Virus record (IMG/VR): IMGVR_UViG_3300028563_000031
Coordinates: 1-45,413 of that record
Strand: one strand, 5' to 3'
Source: a virus
Length of the DNA: 45,413 nt
In this document: positions 9,809 through 40,483 of the stretch, piece by piece
Numbering within the stretch: position 1 is the stretch's first letter
Layout: each line of letters starts with the position of its first letter
The notes under the pieces: model-generated
Seen by the model: only the letters and a program-made list of their open reading frames with translations
Database searches by the model: none
What the model was told of the DNA's origin: nothing
Position numbers and translations under genes: made by a program

Positions 9809-11632
9809 TTAATTATGATTAATTGTTATTGATTTTCCAGCAGCTGTAAATAGCGCATACAAATGGATAATATTAGTGTTACTGTTCCCATTCGTTGGCG
9901 CCGCGTTCGTTCCTGCGTTAATTGTTACGGATAAATTGGCTGTCGGAGGGTGCGCTGTGAAATAAGTATCCAGTGCGGAAAGTAAATTGTTAATGCTGGC
10001 TGTGTTTAGTGCACAATTGCTAAAATTAATATTTGTAAATGACTGATTGATAACCGGCATTGTTAAGGTTGTTAAGCCTGTATTGTTGTAGCCATATAAC
10101 GTACCGCCAAGGTTGCTAATGGTTGATAAATCTAAGGTAGTCAATCCATTTGCATAAACATAATATCGAATAAAGATTGTAGAAGATATTGGGTTTGTAA
10201 TTCCGGTTATTGCAGCAATTCCGGTAACTTCAAAATCAGATAAAACAGTTGCACCACTAATATCAAGAGTTCCGGATAAAGCAAGGGATGTTCCCTGAGC
10301 TAAAAATGTAGTTAATTTAGTTAACCCAGCACTTGATCCATTAATTGTTAAAGCATTTCCAATTAAATATAGAAAGTATAATTGTGGTTTGCTTGCTATT
10401 GATCCTGTAACTGTTAACGAATTACCCACTAATGATAATGCATATAAAGAACTTAATCCAGTAATTGATCCGGAACAAGTCATATTGGCACCAGATATTG
10501 TTAAGCTTTGTACTAAAGTTAAAGTTGATATATCACCTGAAACGGTTAAGGATGCGCCGCTTAAAATAATCGTCGTGGCTTTTGTTAAACCAGCAATTGA
10601 TCCGGAGCATGTCAAACTGGAACCAGTAAGACACAATGTTACAGCATTAACAATATTCGTTATTGAACCAGAAAAATTATAATTGTTTCCACTAATATAT
10701 AAATATGTTAGATTTACTAAACCTGAAATTGATCCTGAAATAGTTGTTGATGGCGTATTATATAATTCTAAAAATGTAAGATTTGAGAAATTATCAATTG
10801 TCCCACTTATTGACATATTGGGACACTCTTGCAAATAAAGTACAGTTAATCCGGTAATACCATTAATTGATCCTGTAAAACTTCCATTTAGACTCCTAAG
10901 TGTTAAAGATGTCAAATTGACTAATCCACTAATTGAACCATTTATTGTACTTGGTGATGCTCCAGCAATTAAAAGATATGTTAAATTAATTAAACCCGTT
11001 ATTGAACCTGAAAAATTAAAACTGGAACCACTCAATGATAAGCTGGTTAAATTGACTAATCCAGTAATTGAGCCTGTGCATAAAATGGAATTTCCATTTA
11101 GTGCCAATGACGTTAAATTAGTAAAATTGGTTAAATCACCTATAACGTTAGAAATGTTATTTATAGATATACTTAAAATCGTTTGGCTTAATTGAGTAAT
11201 ATTTAAATAAGAACATGCAACACTAGAAACAGTAAATTCTAACAGTCCGGTAAAATGTGATACAGAAGTAAAATACCCTAAATCAATATTTGATGATGAC
11301 GTTTCAAAATGCAATACAGAATCTAAGTCGCCAGTTATTGTTATGGTATAAGTTTGATTTTTACCTGCATAATTAGAAGTATATGCGGTATTTGATGTAG
11401 CTGTTACCGGAGTAATTGTACCATTACCCCAATTAATATAAGCGGTTTTGCCAACTGCCATACGCAACGTAATAGCAGATTGAACATTTGATGCGCCCTG
11501 GATGGAATACAAAGTCGGATTAATATTCCTGGATGGAAAATAATAAAATGGTCTTAACACTCTCCTTTTTGGAAATGCATCAAGGCCGCTTTGCAGCTTA
11601 TTTTCAGGAAAGCCAAATAATCCGTTATTCAT
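9809..11632 (-). CDS. Leucine-rich-repeat tail appendage protein, 607 aa
   Basis: An extended repetitive protein. After about 60 residues there is a PKD/BspA-like strand region (INWGNGTITPV ... YTITITGDLDSVLHF). From about residue 150 to 520 come roughly fifteen LRR-like repeats of about 23-24 residues with the pattern GSITGLVNLTSLSLSGSSF. The C-terminal 55 residues form a separate cap with HPPTANLSVTI. LRR solenoids present large binding surfaces, and in Bacteroidota BspA-like LRRs mediate adhesion; here receptor recognition is inferred. It lies between a virion jelly-roll-like gene and two small fibre-associated genes. Repeats make it prone to length change by recombination. Confidence 0.8.
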   Translation of the reverse strand: MNNGLFGFPENKLQSGLDAFPKRRVLRPFYYFPSRNINPTLYSIQGASNVQSAITLRMAVGKTAYINWGNGTITPVTATSNTAYTSNYAGKNQTYTITITGDLDSVLHFETSSSNIDLGYFTSVSHFTGLLEFTVSSVACSYLNITQLSQTILSISINNISNVIGDLTNFTNLTSLALNGNSILCTGSITGLVNLTSLSLSGSSFNFSGSITGLINLTYLLIAGASPSTINGSISGLVNLTSLTLRSLNGSFTGSINGITGLTVLYLQECPNMSISGTIDNFSNLTFLELYNTPSTTISGSISGLVNLTYLYISGNNYNFSGSITNIVNAVTLCLTGSSLTCSGSIAGLTKATTIILSGASLTVSGDISTLTLVQSLTISGANMTCSGSITGLSSLYALSLVGNSLTVTGSIASKPQLYFLYLIGNALTINGSSAGLTKLTTFLAQGTSLALSGTLDISGATVLSDFEVTGIAAITGITNPISSTIFIRYYVYANGLTTLDLSTISNLGGTLYGYNNTGLTTLTMPVINQSFTNINFSNCALNTASINNLLSALDTYFTAHPPTANLSVTINAGTNAAPTNGNSNTNIIHLYALFTAAGKSITINHN

Positions 11633-12068: not shown

Positions 12069-14084
12069 TTATCTAAAGTTTTGGTATGCGTAAATGACCG
12101 AGAATGTACTTTGTGCTTGTAATGCCGCGTTAATTGCAGCATCAACATCCGATTTATTATAATAATTAGCATGCAAATCGGTAATATCTTCTTTGCCGCT
12201 TAAATCCTGATCGCCAGTGTTGGTACCGGAAATGGCTGCGAGTTTATTTTTTTCGCCCGTGGTATAATCATTTGTTGATAATCCTTTACCAGCAACTTGG
12301 TCCACTTTATTATTTACCTGGCCCTGCAATTTGCCCAAAGAAACTTTTATTGAATCGGTTGCTGATATTGCAGTATTGACAATAAGCCCGGTTAAATCGC
12401 CAATAATTGCACCAATTGCCCTGGCAACGGTAAAATATAAATTTGTGGATCCCTCAGTAACCGAATCAGTACTGCCAGGCGAAGCTGCAATTACAACATA
12501 AACGCTACCAGACCAGCGGTATATTTTATTTGTATCCAGAGCGGTATATATCTTTCCTGTTTCTCCTGTTCCCGGGAAGGCTGCTAAATTTGCAAATTCC
12601 AACACATCATCAACATAACTTGGCAATTGTGCAGCTGCTACTTTACCAGTTGAATCCAACCCGGCATAACCGTTTGCCTGGTTCTTTTCAGATTTTAATT
12701 GTAAACCGGATAAATCCTGATCACCCGTATTTGTTCCGGAAATGGCCGCAAGTTTGTTTTTTTCAGTGGTAGTATAGTCATTTGTTGATAAACCTTTGCC
12801 GTCAATCTTATCAACTTTTCCACTTAGATCCTGATCACCGGTATTAGTTCCGGTGATGGCTGCCAGTTTATTTTTTTCGGTGGTGGTATAGTCATTTGTT
12901 GATAAACCTTTGCCGGTGACCTGATCAACTTTAAGATTAACGGCTGATTGCAGAGCATCAATCAGTACTTTTAACGCATTACCCTGTTTTGCAGATAGCG
13001 GTTTAGTTGAATCAACACTCGTAAGCACATCAATAATATCGCTTGTACTTATTTTGGCACCGATCTGTCCGGATATGGTTGTTGCAAAATTGGGATCATC
13101 TCCCAGGGCATCGGCAAGTTCTTTTAAAGTATCCAAAACACCTGGTGCAGAATTAACCAGGGCTGATACTTTTCCATCAACATAAGAAGTTGAAGCAAGG
13201 AGCGCCATTGCTGAATTAATATCATCAATTAAAGTTTTCAATGCTTTGCCCTGGTTCGCAGATAACGGCTTATCAGTTGCAATACTTGTAAGATTATCAA
13301 TTATATCAGTAATATTTATTTTAGATGCAAGCGCTAAAACTGTAATTGCGTTATTATTTGCATTATCCAGTCCATCCAGGATCGTTTGTATTTGTGGAAA
13401 CCCTGAATTAAAATAAGGAGCATTTACAATATTTTGAATCGCAGATGCATCGAGCTTGTTACCATCAATTGTAATAGATTCTAAAGCTGTTACAATTTCG
13501 TCGGGGCTCTGATCGGCGGTTGCCCCACTTTCAATTGTTGTTAATTTGGTCTCAATAACCGTTAATCGGCTTAAAATTTGAGCTAATTCCTGATCACCTG
13601 GTATGGAATAAAAATCTGATGCTAATACTGCGCCATCTTTACCAGCTACAATAATATCGCCAACATCCAATGTGCTTTTAGGCAATAATCCGGTTATTGC
13701 GGCAGTACTGGCCACAGTTATTCGCCAAAAGTTTCCGTTCTTTATTGCACCTGCCGTACCAGTGCCAACAGTTGGAAGGGTATTTTCGGAAGCATCAAAT
13801 GGCCCGGCTGGACCAGAACCCGAAATAACCAGTGAGACAATATCAATTCCACCGATTTTAAGTGTTTGTCCAGTTAGAAGATTAATACCTGTAACCGGAT
13901 CGTAACCTATTGCGGTTTTATCAAGCTTTGTTGCAGAAAGGTTTGAAATGAAGTTATTCAGCGTATCGGAAATATCATGCAATATTCCTTGCAGGACCGG
14001 TCCTGTAATTAACTGACTGAAATTTGCATAAATATATGCATTAATTCTATTCGAAAGGGCTTGTATACTGCTGAGTATAGACAT
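12069..14084 (-). CDS. Modular tail fibre protein, 671 aa
   Basis: A long, low-aromatic fibre with alternating helical and beta segments. The N-terminal 100 residues probably attach to the tail. Residues about 120-430 hold repeated fibre-shaft motifs (DIIDNLTSIATDKPLSANQGKAL and its copy at DIIDVLTSVDSTKPLSAKQGNAL). Three copies of LSTNDYTTxEKNKLAAIxGTNTGDQDLSG lie further on, two in tandem and one near the C-terminus. Residues about 487-530 carry the DVLEFANLAAFPGTGETGKIY module shared with the 810-aa protein. Such collagen-like or triple-helical shafts present host-binding tips. It begins 2 nt after the 98-aa membrane gene. Confidence 0.88.
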   Translation of the reverse strand: MSILSSIQALSNRINAYIYANFSQLITGPVLQGILHDISDTLNNFISNLSATKLDKTAIGYDPVTGINLLTGQTLKIGGIDIVSLVISGSGPAGPFDASENTLPTVGTGTAGAIKNGNFWRITVASTAAITGLLPKSTLDVGDIIVAGKDGAVLASDFYSIPGDQELAQILSRLTVIETKLTTIESGATADQSPDEIVTALESITIDGNKLDASAIQNIVNAPYFNSGFPQIQTILDGLDNANNNAITVLALASKINITDIIDNLTSIATDKPLSANQGKALKTLIDDINSAMALLASTSYVDGKVSALVNSAPGVLDTLKELADALGDDPNFATTISGQIGAKISTSDIIDVLTSVDSTKPLSAKQGNALKVLIDALQSAVNLKVDQVTGKGLSTNDYTTTEKNKLAAITGTNTGDQDLSGKVDKIDGKGLSTNDYTTTEKNKLAAISGTNTGDQDLSGLQLKSEKNQANGYAGLDSTGKVAAAQLPSYVDDVLEFANLAAFPGTGETGKIYTALDTNKIYRWSGSVYVVIAASPGSTDSVTEGSTNLYFTVARAIGAIIGDLTGLIVNTAISATDSIKVSLGKLQGQVNNKVDQVAGKGLSTNDYTTGEKNKLAAISGTNTGDQDLSGKEDITDLHANYYNKSDVDAAINAALQAQSTFSVIYAYQNFR
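12197..12929 (-). repeat. Three nucleotide-level repeats inside the tail fibre gene
   Basis: Three units of about 109 bp occur at about 12197-12305, 12707-12815 and 12821-12929. Each encodes GKGLSTNDYTTxEKNKLAAIxGTNTGDQDLSG. The latter two are nearly tandem (114-bp period) and highly similar in DNA as well as protein. Unequal recombination between them could shorten or lengthen the fibre. Confidence 0.85.
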
Positions 14085-36453: not shown

Positions 36454-36801
36454 TTACTCCAAAATCGTCCAGTCATTTGAAAGCATATCGGTTTGAGATG
36501 CTAACCAGCCATTAACGATTGTTCCATCAGCAGCTTTCATACATAGATAAGCAGTAAACTTAACTTTGTCGTCTTCATCTGCTGGAGAAATGCGATTACC
36601 ATTACCATCTAAAACATCTTTTAGATAAAAGTCCTTTACACTTTGTGGCAATGATTTAACCTTGTCAATTACCATGTCAATGTGTAGTTCATCGGCTGGC
36701 CGCATAAAAACAAACATGCCTTTACCGTTCCAACCTTGTCGAGCAATTCGCCCACCCGCTTTTGCAACTTCTAAAGCTGCACCAAAAGATAAATTTTCCA
36801 T
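36454..36801 (-). CDS. DUF2829 protein, Tad2-like candidate Thoeris inhibitor, 115 aa
   Basis: SFGAALEVAKAGGRIARQGWNGKGMFVFM (residues 5-33) and the C-terminal AYLCMKAADGTIVNGWLASQTDMLSNDW (84-111) are the two hallmark segments of DUF2829. In that family phage Tad2 proteins bind and sequester the cyclic ADP-ribose signal made by Thoeris TIR enzymes. Length near 115 fits, and the GWN and SQTDM residues are intact. An extra 30-residue insertion (PADELHIDMVIDKVKSLPQSVKDFYLK) between the segments is longer than I remember for small members. It lies next to an ASCH gene and the DGR. Anti-defence activity is inferred from family membership. Confidence 0.85.
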   Translation of the reverse strand: MENLSFGAALEVAKAGGRIARQGWNGKGMFVFMRPADELHIDMVIDKVKSLPQSVKDFYLKDVLDGNGNRISPADEDDKVKFTAYLCMKAADGTIVNGWLASQTDMLSNDWTILE

Positions 36802-36898: not shown

Positions 36899-37456
36899 TC
36901 ATTTTTTAAAAATTAGTTTGGATCCACCATCCCCCTTAAATGGCAAATAGTAACCCTGCCCATTTTTATAAGGTATTGGCTCCATCAGGATACGATGGTT
37001 GGAACCTAACCAGGCGAAGCGACCAGGAGTGTAATCGCCAAAAGATAATTCGGGTTCGATTATACGTGTCCAAACCATTTCGTGGTTATGAATCCAAAAG
37101 TAACCATCGGACCAGGAGTAAATTTTGGCGCATCGTTCGATATCTACTGCCCCAATGATGAAACCCATGGGAAAGCTGAAATAATAGCCTTTATATCCAT
37201 CATCTTCGCTTTCGTGTTTGTGGAGATAACCTATTTGAACCAACGCGCTTTTGAATGGCTCACGGATGCAAATTTCTGCCTGTTCCTTACTCCATTTTTG
37301 GGCAGAATGTATTAAATAAGTGCCTCGATGAGAAGTTTCCTTTGGGCGTGTTTCTAATTTTTTAATTTTATGTACATATAAGGTTGCCCAGGGTTGCCAC
37401 AATGTTAAGACCTTTGGAACATCAGTATTCATCTGATCAATCATTAAATCTTTCAT
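36899..37456 (-). CDS. ASCH-domain protein, 185 aa
   Basis: VLTLWQPWATLYVHKIKKLETRPKETSHRGTYLIHSAQKW (about 16-55), GFIIGAVDIERC (97-108), SFGDYTPGRFAWLGSNHRIL (137-156) and PYKNGQGYY give the ASCH/PUA-like pattern in order. ASCH proteins bind RNA or nucleotides, and some hydrolyse modified cytidine; their phage roles are mostly unknown. It sits between the DUF2829 gene and the small gene downstream of the reverse transcriptase, separated by short gaps. RNA binding is inferred from the fold. Confidence 0.85.
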   Translation of the reverse strand: MKDLMIDQMNTDVPKVLTLWQPWATLYVHKIKKLETRPKETSHRGTYLIHSAQKWSKEQAEICIREPFKSALVQIGYLHKHESEDDGYKGYYFSFPMGFIIGAVDIERCAKIYSWSDGYFWIHNHEMVWTRIIEPELSFGDYTPGRFAWLGSNHRILMEPIPYKNGQGYYLPFKGDGGSKLIFKK

Positions 37457-37471
37457 ATCTAATAATTTAGT

Positions 37472-37777
37472 TCATGTAAATTTAAATCTCTCATTATCTT
37501 TAACTATAGTAGTCGTAAATGGAAATCCTTCATCCGGTATCTGTTGAATTACCTCAATTAAACCTCCTGCTGAAGTAAAAACGATGTGCTTTTCATTATC
37601 AACAGAGATCTGAAGCTGCAAACATTTACCGCTTCCACGTTCCTTGAAACATTTAGAGTCATCAATTTTGAAATGATATACCACGATTTCGCGGTTTAGG
37701 ATCTTCGACATTTTAATTTTATCACCTTCGTATCCTTTTGAGGGTTCTTTAATTTTAAACTGACTAAAATTATTCAT
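37472..37777 (-). CDS. Small beta-rich protein coupled to the DGR reverse transcriptase, 101 aa
   Basis: Its start overlaps the reverse transcriptase stop by 8 nt, so it is translated with it. The sequence alternates strands (REIVVYHFKIDDS, KCLQLQISVDNEKHIVFTS, PFTTTIVKDNERFKF) with SKCFKERGSGKCLQLQI, consistent with a small beta-barrel (OB-like) protein. It is not the usual helical Avd accessory protein of DGRs by composition. It could replace Avd as an RNA- or DNA-binding partner; this is speculation from coupling. Confidence 0.7.
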   Translation of the reverse strand: MNNFSQFKIKEPSKGYEGDKIKMSKILNREIVVYHFKIDDSKCFKERGSGKCLQLQISVDNEKHIVFTSAGGLIEVIQQIPDEGFPFTTTIVKDNERFKFT

Positions 37778-38723
37778 GTAATAACTTCTTTAATAAATGT
37801 ATACTATTACAATGACTAGCCCAGCCATTGTATGATGCTATGGATTGTTTATTCTTATTGTTTACCAACATCCTGGCAAAGTTCTGTTTAATGCTTTTCC
37901 TTAAAAGAGTATGTGTATGATGGAAAACGTAACCTACAAAATCAATTCCCCTGGCCTTTACCGGAAAGATTTGATAATTATCCTTTATTTGCAGTTTAAG
38001 CCTTTCATTCATATATATTTTTATGTCTGCAAGCAATTTGTGTAAGTACGGTTTGCTATTCGATAAAATAACCAGGTCATCAGCATATCTGAAGTAATAT
38101 TGTACATGCTTTTCTTCTTTCATCCAGTGATCAAAATATGACAAATAGAAATTTGCGAAATATTGGCTGAGATAATTGCCAATGGGTAATCCATCAGTGC
38201 TGTCAATAATTTCATCAAGGAGCCATAATAGATCCAGGTCTTTAAACTTTCGGCGAAGCAATTGCTTCAAAATATTATGATTTATGTTCGGATAGAACTT
38301 TTTAATGTCGAGTTTCATACAATATTGCGTTGCATCTTTATCTTTTAATGCATTTTTAACTGCATTAGCGCAAGCGTGAATTCCCCTTTTTTTAATACAA
38401 CTATAAGTATCGGCGGTAAATGTTGATACAAAAATAGGTTCAAGTATATGCATAATTGCATGGTGAGTGATGCGATCAGGAAAATATGGCAACCTGAATA
38501 TAATCCTTTCTTTTGGTTCGTGTATTGTAAAGGTTGTATAATCAGAAGTTTTGTAAGTTTTATTTATAAGCATTTCGTGAAGCTTCACTATGTTTTCATC
38601 CCTGTTTTTATCGTGTTCAATTATACCAGGTTGTTTTGATTTCCCTTTTCGGGCAATAATATCAGCCAATTGAATATTTTCAATGCTGCAGATCTGTTCG
38701 TATAAATTATTAATCCTTTTCAT
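37770..38723 (-). CDS. Diversity-generating retroelement reverse transcriptase, 317 aa
   Basis: Motifs occur in RT order: KERIIFRLPYFPDRITHHAI (71-90), YCMKLDIKKFYPNI (134-147, catalytic D139), DGLPIGNYLSQYFANFYL (177-194), and FRYADDLVIL (211-220, catalytic D215/D216), then GIDFVGYVF. IGNYLSQ, in place of the QGxxxSP of retroviral enzymes, is the DGR signature in motif 4. No integrase or maturase domain is present. It is transcribed after the two target genes and the 82-nt template 101 bp upstream. It would copy the template RNA with errors at adenines and write the cDNA into the variable repeats. Confidence 0.97.
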   Translation of the reverse strand: MKRINNLYEQICSIENIQLADIIARKGKSKQPGIIEHDKNRDENIVKLHEMLINKTYKTSDYTTFTIHEPKERIIFRLPYFPDRITHHAIMHILEPIFVSTFTADTYSCIKKRGIHACANAVKNALKDKDATQYCMKLDIKKFYPNINHNILKQLLRRKFKDLDLLWLLDEIIDSTDGLPIGNYLSQYFANFYLSYFDHWMKEEKHVQYYFRYADDLVILSNSKPYLHKLLADIKIYMNERLKLQIKDNYQIFPVKARGIDFVGYVFHHTHTLLRKSIKQNFARMLVNNKNKQSIASYNGWASHCNSIHLLKKLLHE

Positions 38724-38824
38724 TTGCCTTTGCTTTTAAAAGATCGCATTCCCCGAAAGTACCAGCGCTCTTTATGGTAATGTTATTTTTTGCCATGCGG
38801 GCAAGGTTTATGTTGCAAATATTC

Positions 38825-38906
38825 GCATAGGTGAGAACTGACGTTCGTATTCGTGTTCGTATAGTTGTAATTCGAATTCGACAAAACGAACCTGGAACCG
38901 GAAGAC
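38825..38906 (-). ncRNA. DGR template repeat (TR), 82 nt
   Basis: Read on the minus strand it encodes SSGSRFVLSNSNYNYTNTNTN. It has 21 adenines, six AAY codons among them. Compared with VR1 it differs at 13 positions and with VR2 at 15; every difference is at a template adenine, and all 61 non-adenine bases are identical in all three. It lies between the first target gene and the reverse transcriptase. Confidence 0.97.
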
Positions 38907-38942
38907 ACTAGCAGCTCTGGCAACATACAACCTTAATATCAA

Positions 38943-39356
38943 TTAAAAAAAATAGTCCTGGTATTCGGCCTTAAACTGCTTTGCAATGTATAATGACTTT
39001 TCAGATGTATCAGTGCAAAGGCGAGAACCGACGTACGTAAACGCGATCGTATAGTCGTAACCCGAATCCGACAAAACGAACCCGGAACCGGAAGACTTAA
39101 CTTCATACCATGGATAGTATTTATATTGATTCCAATCGGTATAATCAGCAATCCATCCATTGTTAATTGCCTGAAAGATGATCATCAGTTTATAAGCATT
39201 AATTATTGCTTTTCTTAAACCTTCAGGTAACATGGATACATCTGGAAGTTTTTCAGGATCCACATTTTCTTTTTTACAGGCGTCTTCAAAGCTTTTAATC
39301 ATTTTAAAATTGAACTCGACCGTCTTTTTAACTGTTTTTTTTGCTTTAGTTTCCAT
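38943..39356 (-). CDS. DGR target protein 1, 137 aa
   Basis: A small soluble protein with no signal peptide or membrane helix. The N-terminus is Lys-rich, and a helical part follows to about residue 70. Then comes the conserved frame YYPWYEVKSSGSGFVLS, the variable region, and VGSRLC followed by a helix (SEKSLYIAKQFKAEYQDYFF). I know this PW.. GSGF .. VGSRLCF pattern from short Bacteroidota phage proteins. Template-encoded NSNYNYTNTNTNVSSH is here DSGYDYTIAFTYVGSR, so most template Asn codons have been changed. It is 17 nt after target 2 and precedes the template. Confidence 0.92.
   Translation of the reverse strand: METKAKKTVKKTVEFNFKMIKSFEDACKKENVDPEKLPDVSMLPEGLRKAIINAYKLMIIFQAINNGWIADYTDWNQYKYYPWYEVKSSGSGFVLSDSGYDYTIAFTYVGSRLCTDTSEKSLYIAKQFKAEYQDYFF
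39015..39096 (-). repeat. DGR variable repeat 1 (VR1), 82 nt
   Basis: Aligned without gaps to TR 38825-38906 (constant offset 190). Thirteen of 21 template adenines are substituted (to G or T), with no other change. It ends 23 codons before the gene end. Confidence 0.97.
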
Positions 39357-39373
39357 TGTTTATTTGGTTTAGA

Positions 39374-39829
39374 TTATAAAAAATAGTTGTAAAGATCAAT
39401 GAATTGCTGTGCTACGTAGTTTGATTTTTCTTCGCTTTCAAAGCAAAGGCGAGAACCGACGTACGTAAACGCGTACGTACAGTCGGAATCCGAAGACGAC
39501 AAAACGAACCCGGAACCGGAAGACTTTGTAAATACCGGGAACCATTTGGGTTGATTAGGATTGTTAAAGTCTGGAACAAAATTGCCATTTACTGCACTGA
39601 TAACTACTTTTAATTTTTTATAGGCAATTTCATCAGGCGTATCAGAAGAATTGAAAACGATATCTTCCGGTTTAATGCCTTTAAATACACAGGCATCTTC
39701 TAAAGTTTTAATGTCCTCAAAACTTTGTTTATTGAAGGTTTTCTCTCCAAATTCTGAAACCAATTGTTCTTTGAACCAATCAGGTGAATCAGAATAGATC
39801 CTTTTTGCAACTGTTTTTGTTATTTCCAT
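39374..39829 (-). CDS. DGR target protein 2, 151 aa
   Basis: A paralogue of target 1. The N-terminal 80 residues diverge, but KWFPVFTKSSGSGFVLS, the variable region and VGSRLCFESEEKSNYVAQQFIDLYNYFL align directly. The variable residues are SSDSDCTYAFTYVGSR against the template NSNYNYTNTNTNVSSH. No signal peptide is seen. One template therefore serves two different scaffolds. It lies 36 nt after the membrane zinc-finger gene. Ligand-binding diversification is the known DGR purpose; what this protein binds is unknown. Confidence 0.92.
   Translation of the reverse strand: MEITKTVAKRIYSDSPDWFKEQLVSEFGEKTFNKQSFEDIKTLEDACVFKGIKPEDIVFNSSDTPDEIAYKKLKVVISAVNGNFVPDFNNPNQPKWFPVFTKSSGSGFVLSSSDSDCTYAFTYVGSRLCFESEEKSNYVAQQFIDLYNYFL
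39443..39524 (-). repeat. DGR variable repeat 2 (VR2), 82 nt
   Basis: Aligned without gaps to TR; 15 of 21 template adenines are substituted (to G, T or C), nothing else. VR1 and VR2 differ from each other at 7 positions, all template adenines and all in the 5' two-thirds, while the last 30 nt are identical. Confidence 0.97.
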
Positions 39830-39865: not shown

Positions 39866-40483
39866 TTAATTTAATGTTGATTTTTTACAGTTAGCCATAT
39901 GTCCCCGTTTTGAATTTTCTGAAGGAAAGGTTTCATTACAATGTGGGCATATGCGTTTGGATAGCTCAAAAGCCTTAAATATCCTTAGCTCTTCGAGTTC
40001 AGTTTTCATTGCATCGAATAAGATCAGTTTATTTTCAGCTTCCAAAAGCATTTTAGTAGTATCAACATGTCTTTTCTTGATATCTGATTCATTATTGACA
40101 TCCTTTTTTTCAGCAGCTAAAATGGCAAAATAGTAAATGGATATCGTGAACATGAAGCTGAAAACTATAGCAGCTATCAGGTTTCCCCAAGCGGCTTGCA
40201 GAACATAATCATATAATGGATAATAAATGAGACTGAGAATGAAAAGGCAGAATGTGTAAAAACCTGCAAAGCTTATTTTACCACGCCTTACCAGCTCAAT
40301 AATTGATAATTCAATAATAACTACTACTACAACACTATGTAAATGATTCATCCAGTCGTAACTGAACCAATGCCGGGCAATGTTATAATGAACAAAGGCA
40401 AGGTGTTCAATATTATTGGTCATGACCAAAACTATAACCAAATAAGTAAATGTTCCTGAAGGAAGGTTTTTTAAAAGTTTCAT
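39866..40483 (-). CDS. Multi-pass membrane protein with C-terminal zinc finger, 205 aa
   Basis: I start at ATG 40483 (MKLLKNLPSGTFTYLVIVLV); a longer frame to 40597 runs into the repeat-rich origin region. Four hydrophobic segments lie at about 11-25, 47-63, 72-90 and 100-125, followed by a coiled coil (TTKMLLEAENKLILFDAMKTELEELRIF) and a zinc-binding CPHCNETFPSENSKRGH-type end (C-x2-C-x12-H-x4-C). A membrane domain with a cytoplasmic zinc finger is unusual. It is the first gene after the origin and leads the DGR cassette. A host membrane or exclusion role is conceivable only. Confidence 0.75.
   Translation of the reverse strand: MKLLKNLPSGTFTYLVIVLVMTNNIEHLAFVHYNIARHWFSYDWMNHLHSVVVVVIIELSIIELVRRGKISFAGFYTFCLFILSLIYYPLYDYVLQAAWGNLIAAIVFSFMFTISIYYFAILAAEKKDVNNESDIKKRHVDTTKMLLEAENKLILFDAMKTELEELRIFKAFELSKRICPHCNETFPSENSKRGHMANCKKSTLN

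Follow-up and report, generated by a model that had tools for sequence, protein, structure and literature searches.

The DNA studied here, called the window below, is a 45 413-base virus record that codes for an integrase, a terminase, a head protease, a tape measure protein and tail proteins, and is the whole or most of a temperate phage genome. Its minus strand carries a diversity-generating retroelement (DGR) in which one template repeat (TR) stands beside two genes with variable repeats (VRs). The genes and elements of the locus are, along transcription:

39374..39829, minus strand: target gene 1, an ORF of 151 aa with its VR near the C-terminus (SGSGF...VGSRLC), the same place as in relatives
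39443..39524, minus strand: VR of target 1, with 15 substitutions, all at TR adenines
39440..39450, minus strand: 3' end of the target-1 VR, GCCTTTGCTTT (IMH), the exact reverse complement of the spacer element
38943..39356, minus strand: target gene 2, an ORF of 137 aa, paralogue of target 1 by alignment
39015..39096, minus strand: VR of target 2, with 13 substitutions, all at TR adenines
39015..39022, minus strand: 3' end of the target-2 VR, GCCTTTGC (IMH), an 8-nt reverse complement of the spacer element
38825..38906, minus strand: TR, 82 nt, non-coding, with 21 adenines (17 ordinary; two before G, at 38893 and 38839; two in the 3' boundary, at 38832 and 38828)
38825..38832, minus strand: 3' end of the TR, ACCTATGC (IMH*), which has A at 38832 and at 38828, against G and T, respectively, in both VRs
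38724..38824, minus strand: structured spacer RNA of 101 nt between TR and reverse transcriptase (RT), with compensatory pairs and similarity to RT-17
38726..38736, minus strand: proposed primer/recognition element AAAGCAAAGGC, 2 nt upstream of the RT start codon
37770..38723, minus strand: DGR reverse transcriptase, 317 aa (PF00078; phrog_1423, E 1e-120; PDB 8ub7, E 1e-39)
37472..37777, minus strand: proposed accessory protein, 101 aa (phrog_19665), with an 8-nt overlap with the RT stop

The TR and both VRs align without gaps over 82 nt, and all of the 28 mismatches are found at the 21 TR adenines, exactly as the initial annotation had read them (its VR1 is the repeat of target 2). If the mismatches are taken as independent, the probability of 28 out of 28 falling on 21 of 82 positions is about 3e-17. 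The RT, which lies outside the interval delimited in that annotation, does carry the motifs YADD and IGNYLSQ noted there, the latter within the DGR-type LPIGNYLSQ, and both are intact. Its best sequence match in the PDB, 8ub7, is titled reverse transcriptase; we take it to be the RT of the Bordetella phage BPP-1 DGR. With a DGR-type RT, a nearby TR from which the VRs differ only at adenines, and a 3' difference between IMH and IMH*, the locus is a complete DGR of a known kind, with one TR and two targets as originally described. There are no further TR copies or remote VRs elsewhere in the record. The phage that carries it is a temperate phage of Bacteroidota.

The two target proteins had been thought to have unrelated N-termini. 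This is incorrect: both match phrog_11581 (residues 2–101 of target 1, E 2e-23; residues 7–85 of target 2, E 4e-21), they are about 40 per cent identical, and their alignment extends through the N-terminal helical region, so that only an N-terminal extension of some 35 residues in target 1 sets them apart. Two AlphaFold predictions are confident for the N- and C-terminal helices and poor across the VR region. Searches for a known fold around the VR, such as that of C-type lectins, with these models, confident only outside the VR, gave no Foldseek match at E 0.001 and no credible VIA match; a search with protein P0001 among viral contigs and phages found no match. If other phage DGRs are a guide, the targets most likely bind receptors and expose a variable surface at the C-terminus. 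They are not the obvious tail fibre of the phage, since the 671-aa tail-fibre-like protein (12069–14084, minus strand), which has many weak matches to tail PHROGs, lacks a VR. The tail region also encodes a 607-aa protein with leucine-rich-repeat-like repeats (9809–11632, minus strand; phrog_6688).

Searches with the RT and the targets yielded about 220 loci from viruses and 80 from bacterial genomes, mostly Bacteroidota, from which a script for ungapped TR/VR pairs extracted 144 non-redundant sets. There are 72 sets with one VR (some of which may miss a second VR because the contig is short), 63 with two and nine with three. As 72 of the 144 sets have two or three tandem targets, the two-target layout is typical of this family, and the novelty claimed for it in the initial annotation does not hold: DGRs with several VRs have long been known, at a seventh (PMC3521204) or 28.6 per cent (PMC6642488) of DGRs, and phages with two targets have been published (PMC10743442, PMC8143477). 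The number of targets can differ between near-identical phages; L053, L054 and L056 share the same TR and have two or three targets, and the flank of the middle VR of L053 is the same as that of the near VR of L056, suggesting gain or loss of targets by recombination.

Adenine-specific variation is also seen between relatives. Eight VR comparisons could be made between loci with an identical TR and a target flank at least 90 per cent identical (identical in five). Differences between the VRs are found at 92 of 160 ordinary TR adenines and two of 16 adenines before G, versus three of 411 other positions. The comparison of adenine and non-adenine sites that the initial annotation had set as a test of its reading thus favours a working DGR in these relatives. 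Ongoing adenine-specific diversification is thus documented among close relatives of one another and not in the window itself, for which no close relative with the same TR was found among the loci collected. That circumstance is what would speak for an inactive relic, or for ordinary paralogous repeats, rather than a working DGR; the intact RT motifs, the adenine-only changes and the active relatives make this reading extremely unlikely, and the DGR of the window is probably active as well. The suggestion that one RNA diversifies two proteins also appears to be right. Over 90 pairs of VRs from the same locus, 489 variable-adenine sites are identical, compared with 461 expected; the VRs of a locus thus behave like independent draws, and one RNA appears to serve both genes separately. 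The window taken by itself could be read otherwise, as its two VRs agree at 10 of the 17 variable sites (nominal p 0.03), suggestive of homogenization through VR-to-VR gene conversion or one cDNA used twice. Since there is no excess across the 90 pairs, only eight of which fall below p 0.05, we rejected the shared sites as a sign of a cDNA used twice and consider homogenization of either kind very unlikely.

Not all of the 28 changes, taken together as diversification in the initial annotation, are of the same nature. Eight of them, at four sites in each of the two VRs, are invariant or nearly so in the relatives. One class concerns TR adenines followed by G, which in the window are 38893 and 38839. 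At such adenines the VR has G in about 90 per cent of cases (480 cells in the short-TR sets and 108 in the long-TR sets); elsewhere in the short-TR sets, G is found at about 30 per cent of adenines before A and 36 per cent of those before C. The pattern persists at fourfold-degenerate sites, with G in 124 of 129 cases before G, 11 of 50 before A and 12 of 23 before C (23 of 73 for the last two together), which argues that selection on the protein is not behind the bias. We also considered that sites at the edge of the repeat might simply not be overwritten, but adenines before G that are flanked on both sides by hypermutated adenines behave alike (G in 44 of 49). Dislocation slippage was rejected as a general rule, as adenines before C rarely become C. 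Nor is the bias common to all DGRs: it is also found in the crAss-like phage LMMB (seven of nine) and in the archaeal virus vir525 (four of four), and is absent from the VHML-like (0.19 G, n = 72) and BPP-1-like (0.48 G, n = 27) sets. On the basis of these repeats we take it to be a property of the RT specific to certain clades. The 3' neighbour also matters to the BPP-1 RT, in a different way, an adenine before C raising the misincorporation of G (PMC12875486). The rules of misreading are thus not the same in all DGR clades, and a good part of what looks like mutation in such repeats may be fixed, which matters when diversity is counted.

The other class of fixed differences forms the 3' boundary: at 38832 the TR has A and the VRs G, and at 38828 the TR has A and the VRs T, a synonymous change in a Leu codon. 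At the second site, T is present in 138 of the 148 VRs belonging to TRs anchored on CTAT, an anchor which itself demands A in the TR, so that TRs with another base there are left uncounted. This boundary faces the spacer, a conserved structured RNA with compensatory changes in nine of 16 consensus pairs. It resembles the Rfam RNA RT-17 (RF03020), which it matches at 38720–38808 with 33.5 bits, under the gathering score of 40.4.

In the window, the spacer element AAAGCAAAGGC (38736–38726) is the exact reverse complement, over 11 nt, of the VR end of target 1, and the TR end is mismatched to it; the VR end of target 2 (39022–39015) is complementary to the same element over 8 nt. The same relation is found throughout the family. 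Over 220 VRs from 142 loci, the mean length of the longest complementary run is 8.1 nt for the VR, 5.0 for the TR and 5.06 for shuffled spacers; runs of at least 8 nt occur in 149 VRs versus 11 TRs, and the run is longer for the VR in 186 cases and shorter in 16. A gap of 0–3 nt separates the element from the RT start in 117 of 127 cases, and the TR has at least two mismatches to the element in 121 of 127.

The two partners also vary together. Where the spacer reads CAAGGC, the VR has GCCTTG in 13 of 15 cases and GCCTTTG in none; where it reads CAAAGGC, the VR has GCCTTTG in 75 of 87 and GCCTTG in two. The spacer variants GACAAGAC and TGCACGGA, each found in a single case, match their own VRs. 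Since the loci share common descent, nominal p-values for these counts are too strong, and the CAAGGC class may represent few events. Some 30 VR/spacer combinations have a CAAAGC spacer with a VR that mostly keeps CCTTTG, giving a pairing shorter by 1–2 nt; for these VRs a canonical spacer would be at least as good a match, and non-canonical spacers as a whole match their own VR no better than canonical ones do (7.03 vs 7.54). No VR–spacer signal was found in the VHML-like and hankyphage-like DGR sets, so the pairing rule should not be called universal. A hairpin or cruciform downstream of the VR was also sought; a stem of at least 7 occurs beside 18 of 225 VRs, with 18 in shuffles, and none is present in the window.

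Other causes can be imagined for both kinds of fixed difference. The replacement of A by G before G could arise not from the RT but from strand-biased mismatch repair, or from A-to-I editing of the TR RNA, given that inosine is read as G. The bias follows the RT clade, and no deaminase was noticed among the cassette genes (although none was searched for specifically), and we regard this origin as rather unlikely. Selection on the proteins would account for fixed Gly and Arg residues in an otherwise normally randomized repeat, as AGN to GGN (Gly) and CAC to CGC (Arg) fall within the conserved motifs GSGF and GSRL; it is improbable in view of the fourfold-degenerate sites before G and of the synonymous change from CTA to CTT, near-universal in the anchored loci. 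As for the spacer element, its position just upstream of the start codon could mark it as a translation signal of the RT whose complementarity to the VR is incidental. A Shine–Dalgarno site needs more distance from the start codon than this element has. The element moreover covaries with the VR and is mismatched to the TR in nearly all loci, and its BPP-1 counterpart is located far upstream of the RT gene; a role in translation alone is therefore unlikely.

We thus favour a reading in which the spacer element acts in the transfer itself. The RT would reverse transcribe the TR and spacer RNA, probably together with an accessory protein that replaces Avd, copying ordinary template adenines inaccurately and reading adenines before G nearly always as G. 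The element AAAGCAAAGGC would fold back, with mismatches, onto the 3' end of the TR and prime cDNA synthesis there. The RNA-primed cDNA would then begin with a 5' stretch that matches the VR exactly and the TR poorly, and its annealing to either target would be favoured over annealing to the template. Being exactly complementary to the VR ends and not to the TR, the element would set the direction of transfer, and the fixed 3' differences would be explained at the same time. Within one phage, the pairing spans 11 nt for target 1 and 8 for target 2, which argues that the element is not simply copied into the VR; the VR ends look like resident recognition sites rather than copies of the primer. 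Taken as a whole, this explanation (an active DGR with the bias before G, priming by the element and annealing to the VR, an accessory protein and receptor-binding targets) is the best that we can offer and seems to us likely. The sequences themselves show the anatomy of the locus, the restriction to adenines, activity in relatives, the bias before G and the complementarity between VR and spacer, whereas the site of priming, the annealing, the role of the accessory and the binding of receptors are inferred. For its more specific component, direction as a base-pairing code in which a spacer element of 7–11 nt primes imperfectly on the TR and recruits the cDNA perfectly to the VR, we see the chances as even. 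Such a code, if true, would account, in at least two DGR lineages whose sequences are unrelated, for the distinction between IMH and IMH*, and a DGR could be retargeted by altering one short element. How target and template are discriminated, and how the cDNA enters the target, is incompletely understood (PMC12875486). The genetic element itself being of a known kind, the VR–spacer pairing and the bias before G are the points that deserve a second look.

The second of these lineages is that of BPP-1 (mtd/avd/TR/brt), which shares with the family the RT class, the adenine-specific transfer from TR to VR and a spacer RNA following the TR. Nucleotides 48–56 of its spacer, AGGTGGTCA, are the exact complement of VR positions 118–126, where the TR differs. 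This stretch ends at A56, which we take to be the priming nucleotide, with the cDNA presumably starting at TR position 117. Among 37 BPP-1-like VRs that carry TGACCAC (or TGATCAC), 33 have a spacer that keeps the exact complement, always GTGGTCA, and the TR is mismatched in all 33. An internal adenine of the spacer has been reported to prime cDNA at IMH* (PMC12875486), and directionality to be set by a 21-bp VR segment with five mismatches to the TR (PMC3240598). In contrast to the family described here, which has two or three small targets, no detected Avd (the controls were weak) and no excess of hairpins, BPP-1 has one large tail-fibre target, Avd and a hairpin downstream of the VR.

The DGRs of crAss-like phages (LMMB and relatives) have RTs 50–59 per cent identical to that of the window, and LMMB, as mentioned above, has the bias before G. 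However, LMMB has one large tail-collar target, and it is the end of its TR, not of its VR, that pairs with the spacer. The DGR of the Bacteroides hankyphage p00 also has a single large target and a DGR RT, 34 per cent identical, and shows no VR–spacer signal. The tentaclin phage DGRs have one TR and two targets as here, but their targets are of different topology, one with the VR near the N-terminus, whereas those of the window are small paralogues with C-terminal VRs (PMC10743442).

The gene that follows the RT codes for 101 amino acids, and 220 of the 255 eligible loci have it beside the RT; the other neighbours in the window are not conserved. The protein has no relative in Pfam or the PDB. 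A domain homologous to it makes up the C-terminal part of both the phrog_1423 profile and the hankyphage RT, whose reading frame (L300:6001–7302) ends in this domain. From its conservation and this homology, we propose that the 101-aa protein is a conserved accessory. Avd is not universal among DGRs; no Avd (PF05635) was detected in the window or in 12 relatives, in searches where the controls were themselves detected weakly or not at all, and no HRDC domain was found in the window, in a search that detected its controls. The 101-aa protein is a candidate partner for RTs without Avd, and may correspond to the one DGR accessory without a Pfam family that is mentioned in a survey (PMC10053308).

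Three other genes surround the DGR. Upstream of the targets, a predicted membrane protein whose tail resembles a C2H2 zinc finger (39866–40480, minus strand) is found only in L013 and L270 among the loci fetched. On the other side, the gene at 36899–37456 (minus strand; phrog_3193) has a weak match to the ASCH domain, below the Pfam cut-off, and is not kept beside the RT in relatives. The gene at 36454–36801 (minus strand) codes for a Tad2-like domain (PF11195, E 5e-22), whose fold is known in proteins that counter the Thoeris defence.
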